Source: a virus
IMG/VR virus record: IMGVR_UViG_3300032288_002536
Span: 1-56,422 of that record
Length of the DNA: 56,422 nt
Reading direction: 5' to 3' (one strand)
Shown: positions 26,573 through 56,422 of the stretch, piece after piece
How the letters are laid out: each line of letters starts with the position of its first letter
How positions within the stretch are numbered: the stretch's first letter is position 1
The notes under the pieces: model-generated
What the model was told of the DNA's origin: nothing
Seen by the model: the letters and a program-made list of their open reading frames with translations, nothing else
Database searches by the model: none
Program-made: the position numbers and the translations under genes

Positions 26573-27178
26573 ATGACAAGAATTAAAAATTTTAAGGATT
26601 TCTGTTTTATTAATGAGTCTGCTGATGACCTTTTTTTCAGAAGGCACTTAGGTAATACTGGCTCTACATACGATAGTAGAGCTAAAAATCATTACGATCT
26701 AGGAGATAAGCCTTCAGTACTTACAAAGACCCATAACTTCTTCCAGAGAATGGAAGATAGAATAAACAGGGCAGCAGAAATAGGAAAATCCCAAGTAAGA
26801 CAAAATAGAGCAGCCAGACCTTATGGTGGACCTGATACAGGATTTGAAATATTGTTTGGGGCAGTTTCTGTTATACCTAATGTACTTAAAAGAGTATTTG
26901 CTCCCACTAAATATGAATTTAGTAAGAAGGCTTCTTCAGATGAAGCTGTTGATGTCGAATTTATTAGACATACCAATGAAGATTTTGCTAAAAATGAATT
27001 ACCTAATATAAAAACGGAGGACCAACTTGCAGATCATATAGGTGATTTATATAGTAGAGGCGACGTTAGAATGGGAGAGGTTCCTGTTTTAGATGACATT
27101 GCTAGGAATAGAGCTAATCTTTATTATCAGCATCAGGAAAATCCTAATCAGCCTATATTCCAACCAAATAATTTATAA
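26573..27178 (+). CDS. tagged protein of unknown function (capsid-targeting-like N-terminus)
   Basis: 201 residues from ATG 26573; a TTG lies just upstream in frame. It begins MTRIKNFKDFCFINESADD. This fits the recurrent tag of this phage (F-x-x-F ... [IL]-x-E-S) and the T4 prohead-protease rule [LI]-x-E. Cleavage would fall after FINE. The rest is polar, with basic Arg/Asn/Gln-rich segments at about 60-85 (MEDRINRAAEIGKSQVRQNR) and an acidic C-terminal half. No enzyme motif is seen. A packaged internal head protein is the best guess. Confidence 0.6.
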   Translation: MTRIKNFKDFCFINESADDLFFRRHLGNTGSTYDSRAKNHYDLGDKPSVLTKTHNFFQRMEDRINRAAEIGKSQVRQNRAARPYGGPDTGFEILFGAVSVIPNVLKRVFAPTKYEFSKKASSDEAVDVEFIRHTNEDFAKNELPNIKTEDQLADHIGDLYSRGDVRMGEVPVLDDIARNRANLYYQHQENPNQPIFQPNNL

Positions 27179-27180
27179 AA

Positions 27181-28002
27181 ATGAAAAAATTCTCCTTAGC
27201 AGTAGAAAAAAAGAAACAAGAATTAAATGAAAGCCAGATGGTTTCAGAGAGAAACCTCTATTTGGACTTCTCTAAAAAGTATCATAAAAAGCATGGTGTT
27301 TCTGGACCTTTTGATAAAAAGTTTAAAGGAGACAGAGATGAGCAAGAAAGATACATGGATGGTCTTGCGAAAGAGTGGGAAGAGCATAAAAAGAAGCATG
27401 GTATAAAGACTAAATCTAGTAAAGGCAAATTTGATTTTGCTAAGAAAAAAATGAATGAATCTAAGTCTTTAGAAATGGCTAGAAAAATGGTAGGTGATGG
27501 CGGAGATCCTAATTATCATTTTGTAACTATGTGTGATGATTTCTACTACGAGAAGGGCGGAGAGATGGTTAGATATAGTAAATATATGGATACAGCTCCT
27601 CTTAAAATAAAGACCACACCAGATTTAGGAGCATACACATTTGGACCTTTTGCAAATTTAGAAGAATCTAAAATGTTTGCAGCAAGTATAGAGCTGGATG
27701 AGATAAATGGTCCTAGAATGGTTACCATAGAAGATAGAAAAAGTGGTGATGTATATTCTAAATTTCTAACTTGTAAAATGCAACCTGTTTGGAATGAAAT
27801 AGAAGAAGAAGAGGAGGAGTACGAAGAAGAGGAGGAAGAAGATGATGAGGAATATGAAGATCCTAGTGCTGAATATACCTATGGTGAAGAGAACGAAGAA
27901 GAAGAGGATGAAGACGAAGACGAGGATGATGAAGAAGAAGATGACGATCATGATGATGAGTACGTAGCTAATGTTCCTCAGGATGATTCTGAAGAGGAAT
28001 AA
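27181..28002 (+). CDS. protein with basic N-terminus and extreme acidic C-terminal tail
   Basis: 273 residues. The first ~95 residues are Lys-rich and helical and contain two E-S sites (KQELNESQ at about 14-21 and KKKMNESKS at about 89-97) that could be protease sites of the tag type. A small alpha/beta domain spans about 100-195. From about 200 to the end the protein is mostly Glu/Asp with few breaks. Such tails bind basic proteins or mimic DNA. A head-core/scaffold component or histone-binding protein are both possible. It starts two bases after the preceding tagged gene. Confidence 0.55.
   Translation: MKKFSLAVEKKKQELNESQMVSERNLYLDFSKKYHKKHGVSGPFDKKFKGDRDEQERYMDGLAKEWEEHKKKHGIKTKSSKGKFDFAKKKMNESKSLEMARKMVGDGGDPNYHFVTMCDDFYYEKGGEMVRYSKYMDTAPLKIKTTPDLGAYTFGPFANLEESKMFAASIELDEINGPRMVTIEDRKSGDVYSKFLTCKMQPVWNEIEEEEEEYEEEEEEDDEEYEDPSAEYTYGEENEEEEDEDEDEDDEEEDDDHDDEYVANVPQDDSEEE
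27799..27960 (+). repeat. low-complexity Glu/Asp codon run
   Basis: GAA/GAG/GAT/GAC codons dominate across about 160 bases, giving the acidic tail. The opposite strand has a long hydrophobic open frame here, which is an artefact of this composition. Confidence 0.85.
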
Positions 28003-28017
28003 CACCAGGTATAAAAT

Positions 28018-28461
28018 ATGCTTAATCCAACCCAAAATCAAGCACTGTACCCAGTTCTTCAGCACTATACAGGATGTAAGATATTATCAATATCATCAGA
28101 GGGTGAGGATCTTTCTTTCAAAACCTATATGGGAGATGGGGGAATTTTAAAAAAAGATAGAAGGGGTAATTGGATTATAAAGATAGGAGACGAAATTATT
28201 TATAAGATAGAAAAGGACGTATTTAATGTTTTAATAAAACCCAGTAAGAAGAATTCTCTGGAGGATTATATAGAAATTTTAAATGAATTATATAATAGCT
28301 CAAGAATAAGCTACAGGTCGAAGCTACTTGTTATGAACATCCTTAAATTTTTAGAAGAATATATAATAGGGTCCGATTTTTTACCCAAAAGTAATATAAG
28401 AGTGGGTATATTTATGGTTTTTAATATTTGCGGTACCAAAATTATTAATTGTTTAAACTAA
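28018..28461 (+). CDS. hypothetical protein
   Basis: 147 residues. An alpha/beta N-terminal part (GDGGILKKDRRGNWIIKIGD) is followed by a helix-rich part with many Leu/Ile and a hydrophobic C-terminus (VGIFMVFNICGTKIINCL), perhaps one weak membrane segment. I recognise no family. Its stop overlaps the next ATG (TAATG), so it is coupled to the ligase-like/NMNAT gene. Confidence 0.55.
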   Translation: MLNPTQNQALYPVLQHYTGCKILSISSEGEDLSFKTYMGDGGILKKDRRGNWIIKIGDEIIYKIEKDVFNVLIKPSKKNSLEDYIEILNELYNSSRISYRSKLLVMNILKFLEEYIIGSDFLPKSNIRVGIFMVFNICGTKIINCLN

Positions 28462-30494
28462 TGGCAGGAATAAGACATTTATCGGATATTTATTCAAAGA
28501 AAGGAAAGGGATTTATAGAAAGCCTTTTTAATAAATTTTTGACTGTAACTGAAAATCTTGATGGATCATCTTTTTCCTTCGAGAAAGATTTTACTGGAGA
28601 TAACATTTCATTTTACAAAAAAGATCAGGATAATCCTATAACTAAAGTTGATAGGATATTAATGAGATATTACGAAAAGCCAATAGTTTATGTAGAGTCT
28701 TTACCAGAGGAAGTAAAAAATGAAATCCCTAAGGGGTGGAGATTTGGTATGGTTTATTTTCCTACAAATAAACCAGTAAACATAGAATATGACAGGATAC
28801 CTAAAAATCATTTGATCCTTACTCATGTGATGGTTAGAGATGAGTTCGGTGATATAATAAAAAATATCCAAGACAAGGAAGAACTTGACGAGTGGGCGGA
28901 AAAACTAGGAGTAGAAAAAGCCCCTATAATATTCCAAGGAAAGCTAAACAGGGATCAGAAGATAGAGATCATGGATTTCTTATCTACCCCCCTCATGGAT
29001 CTAAAGAATAGATTTAAAACTGAGAGTTTTAGCAAATACCTAATATCCATACTAAATAAGAAATTAGAAACAACATCCCTTGGAGAAAATTTAGAGGGAA
29101 GTATAGATTCTCTAGTTTTCAGATTCGAGGATGAAGATGGAAAGGAAGACACAGTTCTTGCTAAAATGGTAGACCCTATATTTTATGAAATAAATCGGGA
29201 TAGGAAGGTAACAAAAACATCATATTTCCCTAGTGACGTATATTCATTATGTCTAATAGACGTAATGAATTTTATATTAGAAACTGGTGTAGAAGATTTT
29301 TATATTGGAGAAGGAGATCCTGAAGAAAGGTACATCAACTTTGTTTTTAGCGTGTTTAAGAGGTTTATAGAGGAGGAGGGAAGTAAATATATTGGAGCGG
29401 ATTTTAATAAGCCAGAGTATCTTAAAAGCGATGGATTTAATATAAATAAAGAATTAATAGAAGACCAAGAGGTAGTTGATCTTTTAGAGGAGGATGAATC
29501 ATATATTGACATTCTTCAAATGATATTAAATTCCTTTAGAAAGTTAAAAAGAACCCCACATGGATTTTTCACTGAAGGCTTAATTCAACAATTTAATATG
29601 TTGGTAGAGGAAATAGCCGATTATGTAAATGCAAAAAGAAAAGATGTTGTTCAGGAATCTATAGGAGTTCCGTCATTTGTTTGGTTTAAAAAAGTTGGTG
29701 CAAGATTTAATCCTTTAATCGAGGAATACAGTAAGGATGATGAAATAGAGCATATAGTATCAAATTATTCTGGTGATGAATTAGATACGAATGAATCTTT
29801 AATATTGGAGTCAGATCAACAAATATTAGAAGAAGAAAAAGAAGAAGCTAATAAGGATAAGGATAAAGAAACATCAGAATTCTTTTCATTTAAGGATTTT
29901 AAGAAAGTTGTTTCGACCAATAAAGAGAAAAGAAAAATTAGGATACTTAACGAAAATAACAGTAAGGTAAATCTGGTAATAGGTAAATTCCAGCCTTTTA
30001 ATAATGGACACTTAAAGATGTGCTCTAGATTAAAAAAAGAAAACAATCTCCCAGTTTTTCTTTGTGTTGTACATCCAGATGTGGAATCGAATAACAAATA
30101 CCCATTTTCATTAGATCTCATTAAAAAATCAATAGGATCTTTAACATCAGAGAATAATAATCTATTTGCCGGTTATGAAATAATTTCCTCGGATCTTTTA
30201 GAGGATGCTATAAATGCTGTTGTTAAACACGCAAATCCAGCTTCTGTTTGTATAGGAGAGAAGGATTTTCAGAATATGGTTTTACAAAGACAATGGATAA
30301 GAGATAAGTATGATTTAGATGGTGGAGATATAGAAATATATAAAACCCCTCAATGGGCAGACAACAAGGACATAAGATCTTACATATCTAATACTGATTT
30401 CCAACAATTCAAAAACAAAGTTCCAAAGTCTATAGCTGTACTATTTAATGAGTTTGTAAGGGAATTAAAAGATTCTCCAGAGGAGGATATATAA
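28461..30494 (+). CDS. RNA-ligase-like domain (catalytic Lys missing) fused to NMN adenylyltransferase-like domain
   Basis: 677 residues from ATG 28461. The N-terminal part has the nucleotidyltransferase/ligase signature: motif I region VTENLDGSSFSF (about 29-40), motif IIIa-like WRFGMVYF, motif IV-like EGSIDSLVFRFED, motif V-like VLAKMVDP. Motif I normally reads E-K-x-D-G, but here the Lys that takes AMP is Asn32. The C-terminal ~170 residues are an NMNAT/NadR-type domain with GKFQPFNNGH (about 505-514) and a late motif DIRSYISNTDF; this would make NAD from NMN and ATP. An F-x-x-F segment (FFSFKDFKKVV) and LNENN lie just before it. The domain pairing suggests NAD or RNA-end metabolism. Confidence 0.72.
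   Translation: MAGIRHLSDIYSKKGKGFIESLFNKFLTVTENLDGSSFSFEKDFTGDNISFYKKDQDNPITKVDRILMRYYEKPIVYVESLPEEVKNEIPKGWRFGMVYFPTNKPVNIEYDRIPKNHLILTHVMVRDEFGDIIKNIQDKEELDEWAEKLGVEKAPIIFQGKLNRDQKIEIMDFLSTPLMDLKNRFKTESFSKYLISILNKKLETTSLGENLEGSIDSLVFRFEDEDGKEDTVLAKMVDPIFYEINRDRKVTKTSYFPSDVYSLCLIDVMNFILETGVEDFYIGEGDPEERYINFVFSVFKRFIEEEGSKYIGADFNKPEYLKSDGFNINKELIEDQEVVDLLEEDESYIDILQMILNSFRKLKRTPHGFFTEGLIQQFNMLVEEIADYVNAKRKDVVQESIGVPSFVWFKKVGARFNPLIEEYSKDDEIEHIVSNYSGDELDTNESLILESDQQILEEEKEEANKDKDKETSEFFSFKDFKKVVSTNKEKRKIRILNENNSKVNLVIGKFQPFNNGHLKMCSRLKKENNLPVFLCVVHPDVESNNKYPFSLDLIKKSIGSLTSENNNLFAGYEIISSDLLEDAINAVVKHANPASVCIGEKDFQNMVLQRQWIRDKYDLDGGDIEIYKTPQWADNKDIRSYISNTDFQQFKNKVPKSIAVLFNEFVRELKDSPEEDI
30486..30493 (+). 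promoter_or_regulatory. GATATATA element at the end of the NMNAT gene
   Basis: The octamer overlaps the stop codon of the preceding gene and ends ten bases before ATG 30504. Intermediate spacing, so weaker support. Confidence 0.25.
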
Positions 30495-30503
30495 TAATAT
30501 CCT

Positions 30504-30776
30504 ATGAAAAAGTATAGCGAAATAAGGGAAAATTCTAATCCTTATGATTTTTCAAACAGTAAGAAATTACTGGAAGAAGCTATGGAGAGATTAAAATCCG
30601 TAAAGGATGAATTCTCTAGAATGAGTGATGTGGATATACAGGAATTAGAGGAGGGATGGAATCTTATTGATAAATACTACGGAAATGTAGTTAGAGGTGA
30701 GATATTTAAAAGGAAAAAAAATAAGGGATATATCCCAAATACTTCTGCGGTATTCCCAAGAAAAGGAGATAGTTAA
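30504..30776 (+). CDS. small hypothetical protein
   Basis: 90 residues. Starts MKKYSEIRENSNPYDF, loosely like the recurrent tag (aromatic, then an E-N-S), but without the second Phe. The middle is helical with heptad-like spacing (LLEEAMERLKSVKDEFSRM). The C-terminus is basic and Pro-containing. Function unknown; it begins a run of small accessory genes with 3-8 base gaps or overlaps. Confidence 0.5.
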   Translation: MKKYSEIRENSNPYDFSNSKKLLEEAMERLKSVKDEFSRMSDVDIQELEEGWNLIDKYYGNVVRGEIFKRKKNKGYIPNTSAVFPRKGDS

Positions 30777-30779
30777 GAT

Positions 30780-31316
30780 ATGCAACACATAAAATTATTC
30801 GAACAATTTTTAAACGAGAAGGACGGATACGGAAGGGACTTTTTCGTAAAGGAGAAAGATGGTAAAGTATCTAAATACTTTTTTAAAATTGACGGGGAAG
30901 ATCAGGCTAAAGGATTCATTGTTTCTATCGGAAAACTTTCTAGAGAAACATCTATTGATGATGCAGAAAACAGTTATGGTGTTATCTCAGTTGAGCCAAT
31001 TAAAGTGTCCATAATGGACGATTATTTAGTAAATGAGACTGATTATAAGTCTAGGGAAAATGACGAGTTTAGGCTAACTAAATCGGAGTTTATGAGATTC
31101 TATAATATAGTTGGCGAATGTATAAAAGACTATCTTCAATCAAATCCTAAGGTTTCTAAATTTTATGATGAAATACTACTGAATCTTGAAATGGGAAGGG
31201 ATGATTATATGGACAAGTGCGATGTACTCATGGATGAATGGAGCTACAATAAATGGAGCATTCAAGAAGGACCGGATAAAAGAACTTTAGTATACACTAG
31301 AAGAGATCATGATTAA
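30780..31316 (+). CDS. tagged protein of unknown function
   Basis: 178 residues. Starts MQHIKLFEQFLNEKDGYG, which fits the tag with F-x-x-F-L-N-E; predicted cleavage after FLNE. The remainder is a compact alpha/beta domain (KYFFKIDGEDQAKGFIVSIG; YGVISVEPIKVSIMDDYLV) and helices with many Asp/Lys. No catalytic motif recognised. The last eight bases overlap the next tagged gene, so the two are probably translated together. Confidence 0.55.
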   Translation: MQHIKLFEQFLNEKDGYGRDFFVKEKDGKVSKYFFKIDGEDQAKGFIVSIGKLSRETSIDDAENSYGVISVEPIKVSIMDDYLVNETDYKSRENDEFRLTKSEFMRFYNIVGECIKDYLQSNPKVSKFYDEILLNLEMGRDDYMDKCDVLMDEWSYNKWSIQEGPDKRTLVYTRRDHD

Positions 31317-31620
31317 ACCTATTCTTTCATATGATGAATTTATAAGTGAATCAAGGATAGCAATAGCTTGGGCTAAGCCTTCTCAATTAACAATAAAGGT
31401 TCTTTCTTTCATATCAGAAAATGAAAGAGTTACTAAAAAGGAGCTATCCGAATTTCTAGAATCTATACCAGAGGATGCCTCTGGAAAAAAGCCATCTATG
31501 CAATGGGTTAAAAATCAGAAGAAATATATTAAATATAAAATAGAAGAGGAGTCTGCTAATTTCTATTGCTTAACTACCCTAGGAAAAAGGATATTAAGAG
31601 CCGCTAAGGTCAATGATTAA
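31309..31620 (+). CDS. tagged winged-helix-like protein
   Basis: 103 residues. Begins MIKPILSYDEFISESRIA: tag with Y-D-E-F-I-S-E-S, predicted cleavage after FISE. After the tag (residue 16 on) comes a winged helix-turn-helix pattern: helix LTIKVLSFISENE, VTKKELSEFLES, a recognition-helix-like KKPSMQWVKNQKKYIKYKIE and a wing NFYCLTTLGKRIL. A packaged DNA-binding or transcription-affecting protein is plausible. It could instead simply bind phage DNA in the head. Function is inferred. Confidence 0.55.
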   Translation: MIKPILSYDEFISESRIAIAWAKPSQLTIKVLSFISENERVTKKELSEFLESIPEDASGKKPSMQWVKNQKKYIKYKIEEESANFYCLTTLGKRILRAAKVND

Positions 31621-31660
31621 CCCTATATCTTAAATTAAATATCCATACGGAGAGGTTTTA

Positions 31661-31692
31661 TTTGTTTTTTATGAAACAATCCTTTATATTTG
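31661..31692 (+). promoter_or_regulatory. Bacteroidota-type sigma-A promoter
   Basis: TTTG at 31661-31664 and TATATTTG at 31685-31692, separated by 20 bases. This matches the -33 (TTTG/TTG) and -7 (TAnnTTTG) consensus of Bacteroidota housekeeping promoters. Transcription should start a few bases downstream, about 20 bases ahead of the histone-like gene. It is the only exact match I noticed between genes. Confidence 0.7.
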
Positions 31693-31718
31693 CTGTAAAA
31701 TATTTAAAATTATAAAAA

Positions 31719-31898
31719 ATGGAAACTTACGAAAAAATTAAAGAATTGGTAGCAGGAATGGAAAAAGACATGGATGCTTTTTATGCTAAAGGAAACAAGT
31801 CAGCTGGAACTAGAGTTCGTACAGCATGTCAAGAACTTAAAAAACTAGCTCAGGATTTAAGAGTTAATGTACAAGAAACTAAGAACACTAAAGCCTAA
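31719..31898 (+). CDS. Hc1-type histone-like protein
   Basis: 59 residues, METYEKIKELVAGMEKDMDA at the start. Further key segments are FYAKGNKSAGTRVRTACQEL and KKLAQDLRVNVQETKN. The helix, the K-G-N-K-x-A-G-T-R-x-R core and the second helix reading L-K-x-L-A-Q-x-x-R match the histone H1-like Hc1 family that is widespread in Bacteroidota, where it binds and compacts DNA. The bacterial version normally has a Lys/Ala-rich tail; here the protein ends shortly after the second helix. It has its own host-like promoter, so it may be expressed early. A host-derived gene is likely. Confidence 0.82.
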   Translation: METYEKIKELVAGMEKDMDAFYAKGNKSAGTRVRTACQELKKLAQDLRVNVQETKNTKA

Positions 31899-31901
31899 TT
31901 T

Positions 31902-35412: not shown

Positions 35413-35714
35413 GAATTCTCTTTCGCTTTTAGGTGGTTAAGATATTCCTCCCAGATTTTTCCCCCCTCTTTTATTCCTGGATTTTTAGATTTATGTGATT
35501 CTGCTCTCTTCGACATTATATAAGAAGCTATTATAGCATCTTTTAATTCTATCTCCTTATTGTCTAATAATGATTGAACCCTCTTAACTGAAGCTAAAGC
35601 ATTTTCTTTATTTGAAAATTTAAGACCTCCTACATAATTCTTATCTTTCTTGAAAGGATTTATATCCCCAAGGTATACAGCTTCAAATAAACCGAAAGAT
35701 AGAATTTTTTTCAC
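35409..35714 (-). CDS. small tagged protein on the minus strand
   Basis: 101 residues with a GTG start at 35714. It begins MKKILSFGLFEAVYLGD, fitting the tag style (hydrophobic, F-x-x-F-E-A), with likely cleavage after FE or nearby. The body is a helical Lys-rich domain (ALASVKRVQSLLDNKEIELK; AIIASYIMSKRAESHKSK) of unknown function. It is the only accessory gene on this strand. An AATATATA element ends four bases before the GTG. Confidence 0.5.
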   Translation of the reverse strand: MKKILSFGLFEAVYLGDINPFKKDKNYVGGLKFSNKENALASVKRVQSLLDNKEIELKDAIIASYIMSKRAESHKSKNPGIKEGGKIWEEYLNHLKAKENS

Positions 35715-42233: not shown

Positions 42234-42893
42234 ATGGAAAAAAAGAATAACCCAAAGAAGATTGAAAATTTTAAGGAATTCGTTAAAGAATATGGAGACA
42301 TAGACGGAAAAGAAAACCTTGAAGAAATACCATGTATAATTATAACAGGACCTCCTGGGTGCGGTAAAGGAACACAATCCAAAATAATATCAAAAGGAAT
42401 GAGATGGAAACACATCTCTACTGGGGATATACTTAGACAATCTAATAACAAAGAAATAAAAAAACTAATGAAAACGGGGAAGTTACTTCCTGATGATTTA
42501 GTTGGTAAAGAGCTAATAGATTATCTTAAGGAATACTCAAAGGATCATGATCCCAAGGGTTTTATATTTGATGGATATCCTAGAAATCTATCACAGAAAG
42601 ATATATTCAATGAAATATGTAGGGTCAACAAACTAAATCTAGTTTATGTATTTTTTCTTAACGGACCAGAATCTCTATTAAAGAAAAGGATAGTCGAGAG
42701 AGGAAAAACGTCTGGAAGATCTGACGATAAAAGTGAGAAAGCTTTTGATAGAAGGATGGAAGAATATAATGAACAAACTCTACCTATGATCGAATCGATG
42801 AGAAACGGATCTAATTTCTTAGAAATATCTTGCAACAGAAATTTAGAAGAGATTACATCTCTAATATTCAAGAAACTTAATAGCGTTTCCTAG
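42234..42893 (+). CDS. adk: adenylate kinase with tag-like N-terminal extension
   Basis: 219 residues from ATG 42234; an upstream TTG start is less likely. The kinase core begins at about residue 36: P-loop GPPGCGKGTQ (about 42-51), HISTGDILR, FIFDGYPRN, and a lid segment in which RGKTSGRSDD takes the place of the usual longer lid. It balances AMP, ADP and ATP pools. The first 35 residues are absent from ordinary adenylate kinases and contain IENFKEFVKEYG. This resembles the F-x-x-F tag seen on other proteins here but is Lys-rich and displaced, so it may be a mere extension. Confidence 0.86.
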   Translation: MEKKNNPKKIENFKEFVKEYGDIDGKENLEEIPCIIITGPPGCGKGTQSKIISKGMRWKHISTGDILRQSNNKEIKKLMKTGKLLPDDLVGKELIDYLKEYSKDHDPKGFIFDGYPRNLSQKDIFNEICRVNKLNLVYVFFLNGPESLLKKRIVERGKTSGRSDDKSEKAFDRRMEEYNEQTLPMIESMRNGSNFLEISCNRNLEEITSLIFKKLNSVS

Positions 42894-44180: not shown

Positions 44181-44188
44181 GATATATA
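44181..44188 (+). promoter_or_regulatory. GATATATA late-promoter-like element
   Basis: Immediately after the glycosyltransferase stop, ending 18 bases before ATG 44207 of a tagged gene. Confidence 0.45.
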
Positions 44189-44206: not shown

Positions 44207-44689
44207 ATGTTAATCTTAAGATTTCAAGAATTCATTAATGAATCAGTATACAACGTAGGAGTTCCTATCTATAGAGGATCTAGTTTTCAACCAGAAAAAA
44301 CTATAAAAAGAAATAAGTTTATTGGTGAGTTGAAAAGCTATCTTTCTCAAGTAGCTAATGGTACTTTATCACAAATAACTATAGTTGCTGAAATACCAAC
44401 TCAAGGTAAGAATATGCCTAGTTATTTAAAGGATATTTACTCAGAAATGGGATATGATCCTTCTGGAGAAAGAGAAGATATGTATGATCCAGAAACTGAC
44501 GTTTATATGGGCGACAGAAGCAGAACTGCAGATGAGCCAGAATCAAATGTATTCGTAGATTCTGAATTTATAGTTAAAGATGTTGACGAATCAAGAGGTG
44601 TTATAATAGCAACTCCATATTCTCTTAGAAAAAGAGACATTATAGTTGAAATAACACCAGACATGGTAGACGAAGCTCATATTAAGTAA
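44207..44689 (+). CDS. tagged protein, possible ADP-ribosyltransferase-like
   Basis: 160 residues. Starts MLILRFQEFINESVYNV: F-x-x-F-I-N-E-S, the clearest copy of the tag, with predicted cleavage after FINE. The body has an IYRGSSF motif right after the tag and EPESNVFVDSEFIVKDVDES at about 110-129. An E-x-E followed nine residues later by F-x-V is the spacing seen in ADP-ribosyltransferase toxins. The middle S-T-S motif is not evident, so the call is tentative. T4 Alt, a packaged and injected ADP-ribosyltransferase, is a precedent. Confidence 0.5.
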   Translation: MLILRFQEFINESVYNVGVPIYRGSSFQPEKTIKRNKFIGELKSYLSQVANGTLSQITIVAEIPTQGKNMPSYLKDIYSEMGYDPSGEREDMYDPETDVYMGDRSRTADEPESNVFVDSEFIVKDVDESRGVIIATPYSLRKRDIIVEITPDMVDEAHIK

Positions 44690-45129: not shown

Positions 45130-46917
45130 ATGTCATCCAATAAAGAGATAAAGGTTTTATCGGAAAGGGAGCACATACTCCTAAGGCCAACTGTATATGT
45201 AGGAAGTGTAAAACCAACCGACGAGAAGGTTCCAATAGTAAAGGATAACAAGATTTTTATTGAATCTAAGAAGATTTCGGTAGGAATGTATAAATTATTC
45301 GACGAAGTCTTTTCTAATGCGTTAGACGAAGCTAAACGCATGAAAGGAAAGATGAAAACTATAAATATTATTGTTAATTCTAAAGATAATACCGTTTCAG
45401 TTAAAGATACAGGAAATGGATTTTACAAAGGAACAGATATTAACAAAGTTAGTGGTAAAACAAACATAGAAACTGCAGTATCCCAATTAAGAGCAGGTTC
45501 TAACTTTGAGAATGATGACGTAGAGGAATCGTTGGTAGGAACTAATGGTATGGGTGTTAGTCTTGTTAATGTTTTATCTAGATATTTCTCGATAGAAACT
45601 GTAAATGATAAGGCTCATTATTTTCAAGAATGGAAAAATTACGAGGGAAGCGATCCTAAAATAAATAAGAATAAGACAGGACTTAAAACTGGTACAACAG
45701 TAACATTTAAACCCCTATCGGATGTTTTCGGCGGGGATAAATGGGACAAAGAGGTTCTTACATCCACTTTAATACTAAAGTACGATCTTATAAAAAGAGA
45801 TCCAATCCTGAGTAATCTGAACATAGAACTTATTTGGGATGGAGATTTAGTTGATTTAAATGTGGGATTTGTACCAGATAATTCTTTTAAAATAAACACT
45901 GATATAGGACAAATAACTATATGGGAAAAATACGAGGGATCTGGTTCAATTAGTTTTGTTAATTCTGCTATGTGTACTGGTATACATCAGAAGATAGTTA
46001 ATGATTTTATTAATCAAAAACTTGATGACACATTGGGGCACCATTTTTATGACTCCCTTATAGTTTTAAATCTCCCACCAAAATATGTAAAGTTTGGGGA
46101 TCAGAACAAAACTAGGTTTGTAACGACTAGAGAGGAAATTGAAAATCATTTAATTAATAAGTTTGGATCTAAGCTACAGAACTTCTTTAAAACTGAATTA
46201 TTTGAAAGAATAGTTAAGAAGGTAGAAGAAAGGAAAAATGATGGATACGTAAAAAAATTAAGAGCAGAGAAAAGAAAAGTGAATCTTAAACATTCACACA
46301 AATATTTTCCTGCTCAGAAATCAGTAGCGGAAAATCTTTTTATAGTTGAGGGACTTTCTGCTATGGGATCTATACTACAGAAAAGGAATCCAAAAGAGGA
46401 TGGAGTATATGCTCTAAAAGGAAAAATAAAGAATTGTAAAAATATAGGAGATTTATCAGAAAATAAAGAAATCCTAGAGCTAATGCAAATACTTGGATTA
46501 GATCCCACAACAAGAAATTTAGATATTGTTGGATATAAAAAAATAGTAATAGCAACGGATCCGGACCCAGACGGATCACACATAACATCCCTTTTGATAA
46601 ATCTTTTCTATAAATGGTTCCCTATGATAATAAGGATGAAGAGATTAAGCTTCTTAAAGATTCCCTTAGTTTCTTCCGGGGATTCTAAGAAAAGAAAATA
46701 CTATTGGGACATGGATGATTTTAAAAAATCTAAGCCGACTGGTAATATTAGATATTTGAAAGGACTCGGATCTTTATCCCTAGATGATTGGGAGTGGGTT
46801 ATGGGTAATAAATCACTAATATCAATAGAGGAGAGTGATGACAGTAAGGAGAAATTAGAAATGGCTTTTGGTGATTCTTCAGATTTAAGAAAAAAATGGT
46901 TATCTAATAATAAATAG
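45130..46917 (+). CDS. 39: type II DNA topoisomerase, large subunit (gp39+gp60 type)
   Basis: 595 residues. GHKL ATPase motifs: FDEVFSNALDEAKR (Asn/Glu for ATP), VKDTGNGF, and GTNGMGVSLVN. A transducer region follows. The TOPRIM metal site is present: LFIVEGLSAMGSI (Glu) and VIATDPDPDGSHI (D-x-D-x-D). ATPase and TOPRIM parts are in one gene, whereas in T4 they are divided between genes 39 and 60. Together with the gp52-like product at 52020 it relaxes and decatenates phage DNA. Confidence 0.92.
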   Translation: MSSNKEIKVLSEREHILLRPTVYVGSVKPTDEKVPIVKDNKIFIESKKISVGMYKLFDEVFSNALDEAKRMKGKMKTINIIVNSKDNTVSVKDTGNGFYKGTDINKVSGKTNIETAVSQLRAGSNFENDDVEESLVGTNGMGVSLVNVLSRYFSIETVNDKAHYFQEWKNYEGSDPKINKNKTGLKTGTTVTFKPLSDVFGGDKWDKEVLTSTLILKYDLIKRDPILSNLNIELIWDGDLVDLNVGFVPDNSFKINTDIGQITIWEKYEGSGSISFVNSAMCTGIHQKIVNDFINQKLDDTLGHHFYDSLIVLNLPPKYVKFGDQNKTRFVTTREEIENHLINKFGSKLQNFFKTELFERIVKKVEERKNDGYVKKLRAEKRKVNLKHSHKYFPAQKSVAENLFIVEGLSAMGSILQKRNPKEDGVYALKGKIKNCKNIGDLSENKEILELMQILGLDPTTRNLDIVGYKKIVIATDPDPDGSHITSLLINLFYKWFPMIIRMKRLSFLKIPLVSSGDSKKRKYYWDMDDFKKSKPTGNIRYLKGLGSLSLDDWEWVMGNKSLISIEESDDSKEKLEMAFGDSSDLRKKWLSNNK

Positions 46918-46924
46918 ATATATA
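46917..46924 (+). promoter_or_regulatory. GATATATA element, short-spacing class
   Basis: Overlaps the stop codon of the topoisomerase gene and ends five bases before ATG 46930. Confidence 0.35.
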
Positions 46925-46929: not shown

Positions 46930-47673
46930 ATGATTTTAAGATTAAAGGACTTTGTTTTTGAGCAGGAGATGGAGAAAAATCCAGAATCTCCGGTTACACC
47001 ATCTCCTAGTAGAGGTAAGCTATCAATTAATTGGGTTAAGCCAGATTTAGCTGAGGAGATATCTCATTATGATGACAAGGCTAAATTAGAATTTTATCAA
47101 CATAATATAACAATAGGTAATAGAGATATAGGAAGAACATCCCCTAGATCTACTAAATTCTACAAGTACATATCCGAGCCTTTTAAGAAAGGACATTTTG
47201 AGAATGTCCCCGTTGTTTCAGAAGGAAGCTTCGACATAAACAGCATACAGAACTTTATGGTTTATGAATACGATAATATAGTTAATGGTGCTTATGGAAG
47301 GGCTTATGGAGATGTACTAGTAAAGACCACAGATGAATTAAAGAAGAGAGGATCTCTGGATCTCCCTGCTCCTATAATTATAAAATTTATTAACTTCGGT
47401 GAAACTAGAACATCCGAAGAAGCTAGTTATTATCTATTTTCTGGAAACAGATTAGCTAATTTAGCACTTCAATATAATATTCCTGTTAAAGCATGGATCG
47501 TCGATCTAATACCTTCTAGAAGAGATGTTAGAGAGTTTGCAGATCAATCAGGAGCTTCTGCAAATCCTACTAAATTTAAAAAACTTCTTAGAAGAGAAAC
47601 AGGAAAAGAGTCTATAGACGACTTAACTGCTAGAGAAAGATTCAAAATCATCCAATCCCTTAAGAATTTTTAA
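46930..47673 (+). CDS. tagged protein with ParB/Srx-like segment
   Basis: 247 residues. Starts MILRLKDFVFEQEMEK: D-F-V-F-E-Q, a variant of the tag. Around 160-190 it has GETRTSEEASYYLFSGNRLA then IPVKAWIVDL. This resembles the ParB/sulfiredoxin-like fold, whose loop reads d-G-x-H-R-l-x-A with [IV]-P-V after it, but His is replaced. Such folds bind DNA or hydrolyse nucleotides (CTPase, nuclease). Catalytic residues are not certain. The rest is helical and basic (LRRETGKESIDDLTARERFK). Confidence 0.5.
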   Translation: MILRLKDFVFEQEMEKNPESPVTPSPSRGKLSINWVKPDLAEEISHYDDKAKLEFYQHNITIGNRDIGRTSPRSTKFYKYISEPFKKGHFENVPVVSEGSFDINSIQNFMVYEYDNIVNGAYGRAYGDVLVKTTDELKKRGSLDLPAPIIIKFINFGETRTSEEASYYLFSGNRLANLALQYNIPVKAWIVDLIPSRRDVREFADQSGASANPTKFKKLLRRETGKESIDDLTARERFKIIQSLKNF

Positions 47674-50330: not shown

Positions 50331-50338
50331 GATATATA
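50331..50338 (+). promoter_or_regulatory. GATATATA element, short-spacing class
   Basis: In the context attttgatatatagagtatgg; ends four bases before ATG 50343 of a tagged gene. Confidence 0.38.
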
Positions 50339-50342: not shown

Positions 50343-51968
50343 ATGGAAAGAAGAATACTATCGTTCAATAGATTTTTAGTTGAACAAGAAACTGTTTCTG
50401 GAGCTACTGGAACGGATACAGCATCTACAGCCACTACAGCAGCTAATATAGAAAGACCTGAAACAGAAAGAGAAGCTAAAAGCAGAATAGCTGGTAATAT
50501 AGTAAAAAATCTATTTGGTGGGACTGGACTCGATGTAGGTCTTACCGGAGGGATTGATTCGGTTATAGAACAAACAAAAGAAGTAAAGGAATCTTTACCA
50601 TATAAGGGATGTGGAATAAATGAACCTTTTGATTTAGGTAAAGTGGATCTTTCGGTATTAACTATAAAGATACTATTAGAATATCTAAATGAAAAAAAAG
50701 CTGGAGATTACACAAAATCAATCGATGAATTAGCTAATAAAAGAGCTATAATATTAGGGGTAAGATCCAGATTAGAGCTTAAAAAAGAATCTGCAAATCA
50801 GGATAGGTTCTGTGATGCACTATATTTCGTTCCTGGAAATGCTAGTGATGGAACTGGTGCTACAGGATCAACTGGTGCTACTGGATCAACTGGTGCTACT
50901 GGATCAACTGGTGCTAAAACAGAAGCCAAACCTAAGGATAATAAAAAAGAGGACTTAATGTCCAAAATTAAAAACAAAAAAAAGAACGAGTCCCTATTAA
51001 TATCTGAAATAAATGATAGAATACAGGAGATAGACTATCTAAAAGAATCTAGTCTATGGGGATTCGAAGAATTCGAGAAACTACAAAGGGAAAAAGAATT
51101 CTTGATAGAAAGCAGAGAACTTCTATATGAGGGGCACATGGACGGTGAGGAATTCTCAAGATTATATGAAGATTTTCTTGGAATAGGGTCTTTCCTTAGC
51201 GGTGCTTATGATGTGGCAGCATCTGGAGTAAAATGGGTAGGAAAGAAACTGGGTCTCGTTTCAGATGATCCTAAAGCTCCAAAATATGATATAGATGCTG
51301 AGGATCCTAAAAGTAGTAAAAAATCGGCAGATGTAGCTGCTCCAACTGGGCCAACTGGACCAACACCCCCAGCCAGTCTTGGTGATCTAATACCAGCTTA
51401 TCAGATAACAACAGTTCCTAGTTTAGCATACTATGGAAAGAAGCCAATGAATCCTAAGGGGGTAGGTATAAAACTACCAGGTGATACCGTTTATATCCTA
51501 CAAGAAAGTAGCTTGGGGGGTAAGGAAAAATATAAAATGATGGTTGAGTATAGTAAGATAGATGTTGGAAGATATCCAATAGGTGTTACTAAATTTGAGA
51601 CTTACAAACCAGCAGAAAAATACAACGAAAATTGTGGTATGCACATTCACAGGTCTTCAACAAAAGGTGTTGGTATATGTGTAGGGCCATGGTCAGCAGG
51701 ATGCCAGGTATTTGCAGATTATGAACAATGGAAAGAGTTTATAGCTAAAGCAGAAAAAGAAACAATGAACTCCAATAGGTTTATTTATGCACTAATACAG
51801 TTGGATGATATACCTGAAGAAGTTTTAAAATATGCTATGATGGGTATAAGATACTCAGAGGTTTTAGCTTCTTCACAAGCAGCACCACAATCTAGCTCAA
51901 CAGGATCACAAGAACCAACAAAAAAAGCGGGGTCCCTTAAAAAACTAGGAAGAGTAACAGAAGACTAG
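50343..51968 (+). CDS. tagged L,D-transpeptidase-like protein with collagen-like linker
   Basis: 541 residues. Starts MERRILSFNRFLVEQETVSG: F-x-x-F-L-V-E-Q tag. Central parts are helical (about 45-155 and 200-280), separated by a short Gly-Ala-Thr-Gly-Ser-Thr repeat at about 172-190. The C-terminal ~150 residues hold the peptidoglycan L,D-transpeptidase-like core: NCGMHIHRSS (His434, His436) and WSAGCQVF (Ser451, Cys454), with a final helical stretch. The nucleophile Cys and neighbouring His are present. SAGC replaces the usual SHGC. It may act on the cell wall from inside the virion, or it may be an endolysin-like enzyme. Confidence 0.7.
   Translation: MERRILSFNRFLVEQETVSGATGTDTASTATTAANIERPETEREAKSRIAGNIVKNLFGGTGLDVGLTGGIDSVIEQTKEVKESLPYKGCGINEPFDLGKVDLSVLTIKILLEYLNEKKAGDYTKSIDELANKRAIILGVRSRLELKKESANQDRFCDALYFVPGNASDGTGATGSTGATGSTGATGSTGAKTEAKPKDNKKEDLMSKIKNKKKNESLLISEINDRIQEIDYLKESSLWGFEEFEKLQREKEFLIESRELLYEGHMDGEEFSRLYEDFLGIGSFLSGAYDVAASGVKWVGKKLGLVSDDPKAPKYDIDAEDPKSSKKSADVAAPTGPTGPTPPASLGDLIPAYQITTVPSLAYYGKKPMNPKGVGIKLPGDTVYILQESSLGGKEKYKMMVEYSKIDVGRYPIGVTKFETYKPAEKYNENCGMHIHRSSTKGVGICVGPWSAGCQVFADYEQWKEFIAKAEKETMNSNRFIYALIQLDDIPEEVLKYAMMGIRYSEVLASSQAAPQSSSTGSQEPTKKAGSLKKLGRVTED
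50856..50909 (+). repeat. three 18-base direct repeats (Gly-Ala-Thr-Gly-Ser-Thr codons)
   Basis: GGTGCTACTGGATCAACT repeated three times head to tail, the first unit with one substitution (ACA for ACT). It codes for a collagen-like linker. The near identity of the units suggests recent expansion by slippage. Confidence 0.85.
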
Positions 51969-52019
51969 TGTAGAAACTTTATTCTTTTGACGCTGTAAAA
52001 TAGGTATAAAAATATTTTA

Positions 52020-53432: not shown

Positions 53433-54192
53433 GAAACAACAAACTTGGAATTTTAGAATAACTAATCCATCGAATTTTATATCTTTTTTAAAGAAGCTAA
53501 AATTAGTTGATAAGAGTGTTCCACTAGAGATTGAAGGAGATAATTTATTTGCTAAGGTAAGAACTCCAGACAAGTCAGTAATTAAGTATGTTAATGTAGA
53601 TATAACAGATATCCTGGAGGGAAATTTTCCGCCTAACAGATTAAAAATCGGTATACTAGAGATAAACAAACTAATCGACGTTTTTAAGTACTTCGGTCCT
53701 GAGGAGGAATTAAATTTATTGGTTGATTCACAGCCTTATGACTCTGATCTTATTGCAACTAGCCTTAAATTCTCGTCCCCTAGTTTAAACATATTTGTTA
53801 AGTGTGCAGATATTAGCCTATTAGCTTACATAGACGATAACATACAAAGACAAATACATTCAACAGAAGGATCTGAAGTAAACTTTGAAATATCTAGGGA
53901 AAGCTTTCAAAAGGTTTCATCCCTAACTGGAATTGAATCGAACTCCGAGGAGTTACTAAATTTTGATATAGAAGAAAATGGGGTAACTATAAGGGGTAAT
54001 TCTTTCCAGTATAATCTAATAAGAGGAAGTAAACCGAATGGATTTAGTGATTCTAGAGTATACACAATATACAAAAATCAATTCTCCTATATAGATCAGG
54101 AAAATTCTGAAATACATTTCCACGAGAATAGGATATTAGTAAAATCTACCGAATCCGATTCTATAATAGCAATAGGTTTAGTAGAAGTTTAA
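53425..54192 (+). CDS. 45: DNA polymerase sliding clamp (gp45-like)
   Basis: 255 residues, slightly longer than T4 gp45 (228). Two clamp-fold repeats: an N-terminal domain with LKIGILEINKLIDVFKYFGP and a C-terminal domain with VNFEISRESFQKVSSL, then NGVTIRGNSFQYNLIRGS. As in T4 it should form a trimeric ring that tethers the polymerase and, with gp55-type sigma, activates late transcription. It directly precedes the C-terminal half of the polymerase (two-base gap), a partner that binds it. Confidence 0.82.
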   Translation: MSKKQQTWNFRITNPSNFISFLKKLKLVDKSVPLEIEGDNLFAKVRTPDKSVIKYVNVDITDILEGNFPPNRLKIGILEINKLIDVFKYFGPEEELNLLVDSQPYDSDLIATSLKFSSPSLNIFVKCADISLLAYIDDNIQRQIHSTEGSEVNFEISRESFQKVSSLTGIESNSEELLNFDIEENGVTIRGNSFQYNLIRGSKPNGFSDSRVYTIYKNQFSYIDQENSEIHFHENRILVKSTESDSIIAIGLVEV

Positions 54193-54194
54193 TT

Positions 54195-55364
54195 ATGGAG
54201 GAGATAGATTACATGTCAATGAGCTTGGAAGAGCTCAATCTAAAACTCCTTGAGTACCAAAAAAAATCATCAGATTTTTATAATACTGAACAGGGAATTA
54301 AATTAACTCTTAACAGTATATACGGAGCGACTGGAAATCAGTACTTTGCTTTATTTAATCCTGATGTAGCTGAAAGCACAACATTACAAGGACAGGACAT
54401 ATGGAAGTTTGCTGAGAAGATAATCAACAGATACTTCAATGATATGTGGCATCTTGATACAGAGCTCCATGAAAAAATGGAGGTGAGAAATGTCAGACAG
54501 CTAAGTCTTGATTTTATCATTTATGGCGATACTGATTCCAACTATATAAATCTTGGTGCTGTAATGGATTCGTGTGAATTCGATTATGAGCCTTTTGAAT
54601 TTGTAAAGAGACTTAACGAGCATAGATTAAAGGAGTATATTAAAAAGTGCTATGACATCTACTCTAAAAAATGGAACACTGAAAACTATCAAGATTTTGA
54701 GCTGGAAAGCTTATCTTATGCTGGGATATTTTTAGGAAAGAAAAAATATGTACTCCATATTGCTTGGCAAGATCCTAATAAAGATTTATTCCCTAGACTT
54801 TCTAAAATAAAATCCACTGGTATAGAATTAGCTCAAGGAGGAACCGCTCCATTTGCAAGAGAAAAACTCACATTCCTATTAAGACACATTTTTGAAAAGG
54901 GTAAATCTTTTGACATAAGAGAATTTGTTAAAATCCTAAAGGAGATAAAGAATGAGTTTAAAGTTCAAAGCCCAGATCAGATATCTATAGGAACGTCCGT
55001 TAATAACATAGAGAAATTTATAGTTAATGACACTTCTAAATTTGAGGTAGCTAAGGGATGTCCAATGCACGTTAGAGCTGCTGGATATCATAACTATATA
55101 CTAAACAATTCCAAATACAAAGCTAAGTACAGCTTAATAAGATCGTCTGAAAAAATTAAATACTATTACGTTAAAGTTAATAGTGAGAGGGAAAATAATG
55201 TCTTTGGATATCTTAATGGATCTTACCCTTATGAATTTGCTCCTCCTGTTGATTTTGATGAGCAATTCAACAGAGTTATCCTAGATCCAATCAATAGATT
55301 TATTGAGGCAATGGGATATTCACCTCTATCACCTAATCTACTATTGGTAAGGGCTTTGTTTTAA
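54195..55364 (+). CDS. 43B: DNA polymerase family B, C-terminal half (motifs B and C, thumb)
   Basis: 389 residues. The N-terminus is an acidic helix (MEEIDYMSMSLEELNLKLLE). Then come motif B KLTLNSIYGATGN (Lys36, Asn40, Tyr43), motif C IYGDTDSNY (Asp112, Asp114) and KKKYVLHI, a likely KKRY-type motif. A thumb domain follows. The C-terminus MGYSPLSPNLLLVRALF resembles the clamp-binding peptide of gp43. The protein lacks exonuclease and motif A, which are in the gene at 35768. There are no intein residues at either end. It lies right behind the clamp gene. Confidence 0.92.
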   Translation: MEEIDYMSMSLEELNLKLLEYQKKSSDFYNTEQGIKLTLNSIYGATGNQYFALFNPDVAESTTLQGQDIWKFAEKIINRYFNDMWHLDTELHEKMEVRNVRQLSLDFIIYGDTDSNYINLGAVMDSCEFDYEPFEFVKRLNEHRLKEYIKKCYDIYSKKWNTENYQDFELESLSYAGIFLGKKKYVLHIAWQDPNKDLFPRLSKIKSTGIELAQGGTAPFAREKLTFLLRHIFEKGKSFDIREFVKILKEIKNEFKVQSPDQISIGTSVNNIEKFIVNDTSKFEVAKGCPMHVRAAGYHNYILNNSKYKAKYSLIRSSEKIKYYYVKVNSERENNVFGYLNGSYPYEFAPPVDFDEQFNRVILDPINRFIEAMGYSPLSPNLLLVRALF

Positions 55365-55376
55365 TATCTTTTTGAT

Positions 55377-55384
55377 GATATATA
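55377..55384 (+). promoter_or_regulatory. GATATATA late-promoter-like element
   Basis: Ends 20 bases before ATG 55405 of a tagged gene, in the 40-base gap after the polymerase half. Confidence 0.42.
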
Positions 55385-55404
55385 GATGAATACGTGTTTA
55401 TCTA

Positions 55405-56160
55405 ATGCCAGGAAGAATTAAAAATTTTAGTCAATTCATTAATGAATCCAATAAAGTAGGGATTAATGAGGGATTCATATCGAGTTTAAAAAAATATGGA
55501 TCTATGGCCATTGGATGGTCTTATCAGCTTTTAAAAAATATAATAAATGGATTAATTGCTCCTATTCCCTACGGTCCAAAAAAAGGACTTCCTACCATTA
55601 TGCTTTTTATACCTGAGGCTGGCCCGATAAGTTCACAGATTGCTAAATTTGAAATGGGTAGAGATCCTTTAAAGGAAGCAGAACTTCCATTGGAATATTC
55701 AAAGGAATATGATACAGAGAGTTCTGATTTAGAAGATCCGTCTGAAAGTATAGTAGAATTGTATAATAATAAATATTATGGAGATGCCTCTAAAAATATC
55801 TTCATAGTTGATAAAAATGATACTGAGGGAGGAAAGAGCGTAGGAAAGGCTGGTGATAAATTAGGGATACCAGTTTTGATGATGGAGTTTAAATACATAG
55901 ATCCTAGAGATATTATAAAGGACGGATCACTAACAAATTCCGGAATACTTCCTACTGACAATGGGAAAGATAATAGGGGTGGTATTATATTTATAAATCA
56001 AATGGATAAGGGCGATTCTAATCTAAAGGGATACTTTACCAATCTTTCTAAATATGGGGAATCTGATGGATACTATCTTCCTAGCAAATGGATTATAGTT
56101 GCATCGGGAGAAAACCCAGATATGGTAGGGGATATCTCTTCATTCGAACTTAAAAAATAA
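55405..56160 (+). CDS. tagged degenerate MoxR-type AAA protein
   Basis: 251 residues. Starts MPGRIKNFSQFINESNKV: F-x-x-F-I-N-E-S tag. The second half resembles a MoxR-type AAA module: P-loop-like NDTEGGKSVGKAG (first Gly missing), DKLGIPVLMMEFKYIDPRDI, Walker-B-like GGIIFINQMD and YYLPSKWIIVASGENP, the sensor-1 region. The usual Walker B reads hhhhDE, but here it is I-N-Q, so ATP hydrolysis is not expected. The protein ends soon after sensor 1 with no lid or arginine finger. It may be a packaged pseudo-ATPase or decoy of a host complex. Confidence 0.6.
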   Translation: MPGRIKNFSQFINESNKVGINEGFISSLKKYGSMAIGWSYQLLKNIINGLIAPIPYGPKKGLPTIMLFIPEAGPISSQIAKFEMGRDPLKEAELPLEYSKEYDTESSDLEDPSESIVELYNNKYYGDASKNIFIVDKNDTEGGKSVGKAGDKLGIPVLMMEFKYIDPRDIIKDGSLTNSGILPTDNGKDNRGGIIFINQMDKGDSNLKGYFTNLSKYGESDGYYLPSKWIIVASGENPDMVGDISSFELKK

Positions 56161-56177
56161 ATTAAATAATCAATAAA

Positions 56178-56422
56178 ATGGGAATGACTTTCGACGAATT
56201 TAAAGTAAAAGGAACTGAATTTGAAATGGATCCTTTAACAACATCAACTAAATCACTAGGATCTGGGGTTGATGAACATTTTGTAAATCTATTGACTTTT
56301 CAGATGCAGTTAAAAGTTATGCACTGGGGTACTGAATCATACGCTCAACACAACGCATTTGGATCTACATATAGTGATATAGATGATGGATTGGATGCAC
56401 TGGTTGAATCATATCAAGGATA
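56178..56422 (+). CDS. DUF5856-like/ferritin-like protein, partial
   Basis: 81 complete codons, cut by the window edge. Starts MGMTFDEFKVKGTEFEMDPL, which includes a tag-like F-D-E-F near the start. The helix FVNLLTFQMQLKVMHWGTES followed by Y-A-Q-H-N-A-F and YSDIDDGLDALVESYQG fits the DUF5856 family of phages, four-helix ferritin/Dps-like proteins. Conserved His, Glu and Asp are in place. A18-base A-rich leader precedes it. The C-terminus is unknown. Confidence 0.6.
   Translation, partial: MGMTFDEFKVKGTEFEMDPLTTSTKSLGSGVDEHFVNLLTFQMQLKVMHWGTESYAQHNAFGSTYSDIDDGLDALVESYQG

Follow-up and report, generated by a model that had tools for sequence, protein, structure and literature searches.

The window analysed here is a complete virus record of 56,422 nucleotides (IMG/VR record IMGVR_UViG_3300032288_002536), a 56-kb fragment from a huge phage of the T4 superfamily with 53 curated coding sequences (CDS). 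It raises the question of why scattered genes with unrelated products should encode proteins that begin with the same short N-terminus. A first-pass annotation, made from the letters alone, had compared this N-terminus, hereafter the tag, to the capsid-targeting sequence (CTS) of the internal proteins of phage T4. We consider it likely, with a probability of roughly 0.83, that the tag is a T4-type capsid-targeting and cleavage signal by which cargo proteins would be packaged, cut and injected with the DNA, probably by imitating the scaffold.

The tag has approximately the shape [ILV]xx[FY]xxF[ILV]xE and is credible on eight of the 53 window genes, namely those starting at 26573, 30780, 31309, 44207, 46930, 50343, 55405 and, on the minus strand, 35714. 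The N-termini quoted by the first-pass annotation are indeed encoded where it had placed them. In the following lines a slash marks the putative cut:

26573 to 26617, plus strand: tag in a displaced-site form, MTRIKNFKDF-CFINE/S, on a 201-residue protein with no family match.
30780 to 30818, plus strand: tag MQHIKLFEQFLNE/K on a 178-residue protein (family F00, eight records).
31309 to 31350, plus strand: tag MIKPILSYDEFISE/S on a 103-residue protein (family F01, eight records).
35682 to 35714, minus strand: tag in an LFE form, VKKILSFGLFE/A, with a GTG start, on a 101-residue protein.
44207 to 44242, plus strand: tag MLILRFQEFINE/S on a 160-residue protein (family F03, seven records).
46930 to 46962, plus strand: tag MILRLKDFVFE/Q on a 247-residue protein (family F04, seven records).
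50343 to 50384, plus strand: tag MERRILSFNRFLVE/Q on a 541-residue protein (family F05, six records).
55405 to 55446, plus strand: tag MPGRIKNFSQFINE/S on a 251-residue protein (family F02).
42234 to 42290, plus strand: doubtful tag, IENFKEFVKE, on an adenylate kinase (PF00406, 1e-31).

The strict core [FY]xxF[IL]xE falls within the first 15 residues of five of the 53 CDS, against 0.05 expected from its interior density (one interior match per 17,376 positions in window proteins). With the pattern [FY]xxF[ILV]x[EQ] the count is six against 0.09, and when residues 2-25 were shuffled in 2,000 trials, 0.11 proteins matched on average and two at most. The genes at 26573 and 46930 (LKDFVFE) lie outside this second pattern and are nevertheless kept in relatives. 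We counted eight credible members because the displaced-site and LFE forms are also conserved there: relatives of 26573 read KNFKDFCQINES and KNFSDFCRLNEA, and those of the minus-strand gene at 35714 read SFKLFEE, SFKLFED, TFKLFEQ and PFKLFEQ in four records. The variant at 50343 was likewise counted as credible. The two cases that the first-pass annotation had called weaker fared less well. The one at 42234 is doubtful since the Glu (NFKDFVKD) or the entire site (NFGDF-GSKE, NFKEF-DSLS) is missing from some adenylate kinase orthologs, and the one at 56178 (MTFDEFKVKG) was rejected by eye, with no [ILV]xE near its start; this open frame (56178-56422), cut by the end of the record, resembles a Dps/ferritin-like protein.

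Of the large phages in the phage collection, LR756500 (462 kb) and LR756504 (636 kb) are nearest to the window and the Prevotella Lak phages more distant. Relatives of the gp32-like protein of the window were found at 31 IMG/VR loci (49-92% identity), and two other searches for relatives gave no match; records from IMG/VR carry G numbers below. Open reading frames (ORFs) of relatives were called by a longest-ORF script on 20-kb tiles with 1.5 kb of overlap, which misplaces some starts and truncates some long ORFs; G021 was read for 223.5 of its 238 kb and G024 for 168 of 208 kb. In the Lak-A1 genome (MK250016), ORFs averaged 149 residues, and 256 once TAG was read as Gln, which is consistent with recoding.

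We searched the first 15 residues of each gene product for [FY]xxF[ILV]xE and found 4-20 genes per record throughout the tag-bearing clade, the 462- and 636-kb phages included, apart from G020 with just one. Matches per genes, with the expected number in brackets, were 5/55 (0.14) in the window, 4/70 (0.08) in G001, 14/332 (0.68) in G003, 6/101 (0.16) in G005, 12/169 (0.40) in G006, 12/158 (0.21) in G010, 5/120 (0.14) in G011, 5/118 (0.06) in G017, 20/674 (1.15) in LR756500, 19/935 (2.01) in LR756504 and, in part-read records, 19/272 (0.61) in G021 and 1/158 (0.14) in G024. The counts were 0/636 (0.81) in Lak, 0/189 (0.07) in pelagiphage Mosig and 1/229 (0.23) in cyanophage S-CAM1, where the match adjoins the S77 protease gene. 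T4, the positive control, yielded 3/265 (0.56), which are ipII, ipIII and 61.1. A broader pattern raised observed and expected numbers alike. For PTm1, RaK2, PA5oct and BF the tag was sought by a DNA pattern alone (1, 4, 0 and 3 matches; controls 1, 3, 2 and 7), which discriminates poorly in AT-rich genomes: it gave 22 matches against 13 for the control in LR756504, and 16 against 6 in Lak, though no Lak N-terminus matches the protein pattern. In the nine-record window clade, a position-specific scoring matrix (PSSM) made from 94 tag words recovered, at a threshold of 6 bits, 91 of 1,283 N-termini and 0 of 4,783 internal-Met decoys; the matrix was trained on N-termini that it counts, so training overlaps test, and the untrained evidence is the pattern counts.

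The proteins behind the tag are unrelated. Across 11 records, 152 of 2,892 proteins are tagged (at least 6 bits), and with the tag removed they form 81 families by body, 59 of which have a member scoring at least 12 bits. One representative of each of these 59 was aligned, and the consensus reads MKxIxxxxxFxNE, with Phe at position 10 and Glu at position 13 in at least 90% and little else in common. A family may hold homologs both with and without the tag; examples are the leucine-rich-repeat family in LR756500 and F19 in LR756504. Chance, or a bias in N-terminal residues, may explain single members: the DegT aminotransferase of LR756504 (MIPIYKPFLNEKN), one of the 59 representatives, is probably a chance match, its N-terminus presumably being like that of ordinary DegT proteins. 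As the source of the whole set, chance is refuted by the enrichment in the window and its relatives (5 against 0.05 in the window, and the counts above for LR756500, LR756504 and G006), and we give it a negligible probability. The shared tag that the first-pass annotation had seen in the window thus holds, and related phages, to which it had pointed, carry the tag well above expectation.

The tag can be divided into an anchor and a cleavage-like site. We defined the anchor as [ILV]xx[FY]xxF, sought the site at positions -2 to +14 of the anchor and compared N-terminal with interior anchors; identical words were removed and related sequences kept, so the cases are not fully independent. The site [ILV]xE accompanied 134 of 179 N-terminal anchors and 69 of 324 interior ones. 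When Glu was replaced, the N-terminal frequency never exceeded the interior one (D, 24/179 against 80/324; K, 22 against 83; Q, 6 against 21; N, 32 against 68; S, 18 against 45). Displaced sites alone gave the same picture, with 42 displaced and 45 siteless N-terminal anchors against 61 and 255 interior ones (Fisher P = 1.6e-7), and among the 101 N-termini with Glu exactly where it is expected, 87 have I, L or V two residues earlier. As read from residue usage, these comparisons show selection for [ILV] and for Glu at the site, even when it is displaced. The [AS]xE motif of phiKZ-type S80 proteases was found by 20 of 179 N-terminal and 32 of 324 interior anchors, and the tag does not follow that rule.

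Within the tag, [FY]xxF sets two aromatics three residues apart, like residues 4 and 7 of T4 internal protein III (IPIII). Mutants of IPIII are reported to depend mainly on these two aromatics for targeting and on residues 8 and 10 for processing, and Asp at position 10 stops processing while targeting is kept (PMC9026906). The separate anchor and [ILV]xE signals at our N-termini match these data. Major capsid proteins (MCPs) of the window clade carry two stretches that would fit the cleavage rule of the tags, W[SA]PIIES close to the N-terminus and HSLNESAG at about residue 40. We also observed five short acidic N-termini in LR756504 (47163, 62693, 312206, 330120 and 614951), MKYLKL[YF]E[DN]FS, rich in D, E and W, which have the anchor without a cleavage site.

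The first-pass annotation had looked to a gp21-type protease elsewhere in the genome, and such a protease is present in the relatives with records that extend to the head genes. PF03420 (S77) exceeded the family cut-off in G006, G011, G020, G021 and LR756500, and fell under it in LR756504 (E = 4.4e-6); it was not found in the window, a 56-kb fragment without the head module. The gene for a gp23-type MCP (PF07068) lies directly downstream of the S77 gene in relatives, and His, Ser and Asp, to which the literature assigns catalytic roles, align with T4 gp21 in G006, G011, LR756500 and LR756504. The S77 gene product is 623-764 residues long and consists of the protease, repeats with a 14-residue period such as NISYSEYLAENLDK (..YSEYLAEN..) and a conserved tail. 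To judge by its position and the abundance of [ILV]xE in it, the repeat region would be the scaffold, and we refer to the whole as the protease-scaffold fusion. Small stand-alone S77-like proteins were seen in addition to the main fusion in G020 (57964-58443, 159 residues) and LR756500 (154840-155244, 134 residues, under the family cut-off).

These repeats resemble the tag. In G006 the repeat region holds [FY]xx[FY][IL]xE 15 times. We counted interior matches to [FYH]xx[FYH][ILV]xE per protein, a pattern chosen after the repeats were seen, and the fusion was the top protein in six of six records of the tag-bearing clade: 15 matches in G006 (next protein 2), 13 in G011 (next 1), 10 in G020 (next 2; the N-terminus of this fusion is cut by tiling), 9 in G021 (next 2), 12 in LR756504 (next 2) and 4 in LR756500 (next 2). 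It was on top in none of five other phages, which are Lak and G024 (one match each), T4, Mosig and S-CAM1. The head-gene neighbourhoods of PTm1, RaK2, PA5oct, PAU and BF are without such a protein as well (0-1 matches per protein). The presumed scaffolds of these phages are also rich in plain [ILV]xE; the aromatic pair ahead of it occurs only within the tag-bearing clade. An interior scan with the PSSM placed the fusion first by matches in G006 and LR756504, tied with other proteins in G011 and G020, and outside the top three in LR756500; the repeat pattern is the stronger of the two tests but post hoc. Among 98 S77 loci, 97 had at least five motifs, a proportion biased upward because the similarity search that retrieved the loci used the fusion with its repeats; tags of at least 10 bits stood in 67 of 1,440 flanking genes. 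Another 15 of 113 loci were left out for want of an ORF matching the S77 pattern.

Across 11 window-clade families, identity averaged 0.76 over the tag, 0.63 over the 20 residues that follow and 0.64 over the body, with synonymous sites near saturation. The contrast is greatest in fast-evolving cargo, with tag against body identities of 0.81 against 0.47 in F02 (six sequences), 0.78 against 0.46 in F10 and 0.73 against 0.32 in F12, and is small in F01, F03 and F07. In F04 (46930), tag and body reach 0.80 and 0.82, and the linker of about 18 residues between them is hypervariable (0.34) with indels.

Conserved tags on divergent bodies could also arise if the 5' end of the gene (promoter, ribosome site and first codons) were a DNA cassette serving as a hook for gene swaps, with no function in the protein. 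T4-like internal-protein genes do sit in a variable hotspot (PMC12373910), and an upstream element is common to the tagged genes here too. A hook of this kind is nevertheless very improbable, since codons are shared at about the rate expected. At shared tag residues the same-codon rate equals the codon-usage expectation in LR756500 (0.761 against 0.760) and LR756504 (0.616 against 0.654) and is slightly above it in G006 (0.582 against 0.506), G003 (0.545 against 0.499) and G021 (0.726 against 0.680), and only five of 908 tag pairs have more than 90% of 33 nt in common. On these grounds DNA-level sharing was rejected as the cause of the tag: the tags are shared at the protein level.

The upstream element is GATATATA, which starts 12-29 nt before five of the eight credible tagged window genes, as follows:

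26544 to 26551, plus strand: GATATATA element before 26573.
44181 to 44188, plus strand: GATATATA element before 44207.
46917 to 46924, plus strand: GATATATA element before 46930.
50331 to 50338, plus strand: GATATATA element before 50343.
55377 to 55384, plus strand: GATATATA element before 55405.
30486 to 30493, plus strand: GATATATA element before 30504, a gene that immediately precedes 30780 and 31309.

The last of these may serve 30780 and 31309 as well. Its nearest gene, at 30504-30776, starts MKKYSEIRENS.. and is a possible further tag variant. In seven window-clade records, 40 of 69 tagged genes have GATATA in the 60 nt ahead of them, compared with 146 of 928 untagged ones (P = 3e-14); in LR756504 TATATA precedes 18 of 21 tagged and 249 of 913 untagged genes, and the signal is weaker in LR756500. 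In G006, GATATATA also stands before the protease-scaffold gene and before genes, presumed to be structural, that correspond to window genes 2850 and 15106. The element may be a late promoter. With five of the eight genes preceded by it, the first-pass remark that most tagged genes lie behind late-type promoter elements holds.

The closest known system is T4, whose IPI-IPIII and gp21 share with the tag-bearing clade an N-terminal signal of 10-20 residues, aromatics three apart, a [LI]xE cut, unrelated bodies and a prohead protease beside gp23. T4 ipI even resembles window gene 26573 in its displaced-site form, MKTFKEF-TSTTTPVSTITE, with STITEA further on. The tag-bearing clade differs in its 4-20 tagged genes per record (one in G020) against three in T4, in an extra hydrophobic residue before the aromatic pair, in allowing V and favouring Asn before Glu, and in the fusion of protease and scaffold with aromatic repeats, which T4 gp22 lacks. 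Each of the three T4 internal proteins blocks a different GmrSD restriction enzyme (PMC12373910), and the CTS has already been proposed as a possible means for T4-like phages to load various proteins into their heads (PMC9026906). T4 gp61.1 (NC_000866, L114 18966-19130, minus strand), annotated as hypothetical, starts MKTFKEFIKE with a full CTS-like N-terminus and is a candidate further internal protein.

The ejection proteins of phiKZ and SPN3US also belong to large phages with many head proteins cut after Glu in an N-terminal propeptide (PMC5694885). Unlike here, these S80-type systems use an A/S-x-E motif and several propeptides exceed 100 residues; no short shared aromatic tag is described in the accessible text of that source. 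Huge Bacteroidetes phages defined by bS21 have a protease/scaffold gene in the MCP region and a GC content of 31.0-33.7%, compared with 31-35% in the window, and the accessible text of PMC9723584 says nothing on tags. Among 12 records searched, mostly fragments and not including the window, bS21 (PF01165) was found in one, LR756504, and not in LR756500 or any of the ten IMG/VR relatives.

Sphingomonas phage PAU (NC_019521, L389-L393) has a common N-terminus of its own, MKT[LI]xxL[YF]E. The pattern M-x(2-9)-L[YF]E, chosen after its head genes were seen, occurs in 22 of 300 ORFs against 1.7 expected (18 in the strict form, two others chance-like). Four of the five proteins that the depositors named internal capsid proteins (gp70, gp142, gp154, gp199 and gp270) are tagged (Fisher P = 1e-4, post hoc), and 18 of the 22 tagged ORFs are not so named, so the annotation probably does not derive from the tag alone; we found no paper giving its basis. 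As in the tag-bearing clade, many PAU ORFs share an N-terminus ending in [IL]xE. Unlike in the clade, the anchors are Leu rather than aromatic, protease and scaffold are separate genes, and head products hold 0-1 aromatic repeats. The mature PAU capsid protein (520 of 585 residues, table in PMC5646251) would start one residue past an ALME/N cut, an agreement to within one residue at best.

One might ask whether the tag targets another phage-made structure, such as a replication compartment, the tail or a membrane. We consider this improbable: the end of the tag follows the S77 cleavage rule, with selection for [ILV] and Glu, the scaffold repeat looks like the tag, and internal head proteins are marked by such a tag in T4 and, by annotation, by a related one in PAU.

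We therefore return to the capsid-targeting reading of the first-pass annotation, which is supported by the position of the tag, its aromatics and [ILV]xE, the unrelated bodies, the S77 gene beside gp23 and the shared upstream element. Under this reading, [ILV]xx[FY]xxF would dock a protein into the scaffold core of the prohead, the S77 prohead protease would cut after [ILV]xE, and the matured protein would stay in the head and enter the next cell with the DNA. Each tag may imitate one repeat of the protease-scaffold polypeptide, in which case docking and cutting would use the scaffold's own code. Virion location, cleavage, injection and the mimicry contact are predictions from sequence.

Several observations weigh against this reading. 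The head module is missing from the window record, a 56-kb fragment in which its own protease is consequently not seen, and virion proteomics for the tag-bearing clade was not found in the literature. No [ILV]xE lies near 45 of the 179 N-terminal anchors, and in F04, F05 and F08 the body is slightly better conserved than the tag. Tag and repeat share just seven residues, with the upstream Ile one residue closer in the repeat. The repeat of LR756500 is degenerate (four matches, none by a stricter pattern). G020 bears ten scaffold repeats with one tagged gene in 160 (0.38 expected), orthologs of tagged families there reading LSEYLFEGEE and FKAYMLNEEE. The T4 CTS works without scaffold repeats of this kind, so mimicry is unnecessary for targeting in general. 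Finally, the PAU tag differs in sequence, gp70 lacks it and the basis of the annotation is unstated.

It is also conceivable, though unlikely, that the tag serves docking only, the tagged proteins being core or assembly parts that are degraded or leave the head, with few or none injected. The T4 core proteins gp22, gp67 and gp68 are cut up and mostly leave (PMC9026906), and some tagged genes adjoin the MCP gene. However, many others lie far from head genes, the bodies are diverse and some enzyme-like, and several evolve fast, as expected of host-facing proteins. We therefore favour packaging followed by injection.

The bodies give some indication of what would be delivered. Pfam was run on the 59 representatives (25 commonest families listed), with per-protein tables for 40, and on 10 window proteins and 10 tagged G021 proteins; in the per-protein tables most tagged proteins had no match. 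A tagged LR756504 protein (63145-63699; L123:7645-8199) matches Acb1 (6.5e-7) and the 2'-5' RNA ligase superfamily (1.4e-10), both over the cut-off, and this Acb1 or 2H phosphoesterase-like protein is possibly a pre-packaged enzyme against the cyclic-oligonucleotide-based antiphage signalling system (CBASS). Other tagged bodies include a glutamyl-tRNA synthetase (3.6e-92) with a 45-residue tagged extension, a PNK3P protein (LR756500 317088, 2.4e-21), a DUF2201 metallopeptidase/VWA protein, leucine-rich repeats, an FMN reductase and, in G021, a cytidylyltransferase-like protein (1.9e-7) and DUF285 repeats. Either repeat type, leucine-rich or DUF285, recurs in tagged paralogs, as at LR756500 13446, 180972, 198758 and others and at G021 174543-177442. 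PADLOC gave only weak scattered matches among the 59 representatives (best 1.4e-5). Roles against host defence or as effectors may be suggested for this cargo.

For the window proteins themselves, Pfam, PHROGs and NCBIfam gave no confirmation of the L,D-transpeptidase, ParB and pseudo-AAA labels of the first-pass annotation, and its winged-helix label was not borne out either, with sub-threshold Pfam matches alone, including a weak one in 31309. Residues 360-490 of the 50343 product match PHROG 3000, of unknown function. Searches of PDB sequences with 44207, 46930 and the C-terminus of 50343 returned nothing meaningful. Predicted structures were of low confidence (mean pLDDT 59 for 44207 and 46 for 46930) and a fold search with the 44207 model found nothing at E ≤ 0.001, so we claim no function for either. 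An ADP-ribosyltransferase-like assignment of 44207, based on 'YRG', was not supported by this model or the fold search. Elsewhere in the window, the C-terminal part of 28449-30494 weakly matches models related to adenylyl/cytidylyltransferases.

No report of such a large tag repertoire in huge phages, nor of a tag matching a scaffold repeat, was found in the literature, bioRxiv and most subscription papers lying outside the search. We put at even odds the idea of a scaffold-mimic code, for which huge T4-superfamily phages would have evolved a protease-scaffold fusion out of tandem units for docking and cutting, and through which any gene could join a fast-changing, pre-made payload by acquiring one N-terminal copy of the repeat, its product being delivered before phage expression. 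With the same evenly balanced confidence, the arsenal so delivered would include an Acb1-like phosphoesterase, nucleotidyltransferase-like proteins, RNA end repair, a tRNA synthetase, leucine-rich repeats and many unknowns. The link between tag and repeat would account for the way in which a tag of ten residues finds its way to the prohead core, and would open this to experiment. If the reading is true, a tag readable from sequence points out candidates for the injected proteins of uncultured huge phages, a set otherwise seen by virion proteomics. Since the internal proteins of T4 block GmrSD enzymes, the dozens of new tag carriers would be candidates for anti-defence and host takeover.

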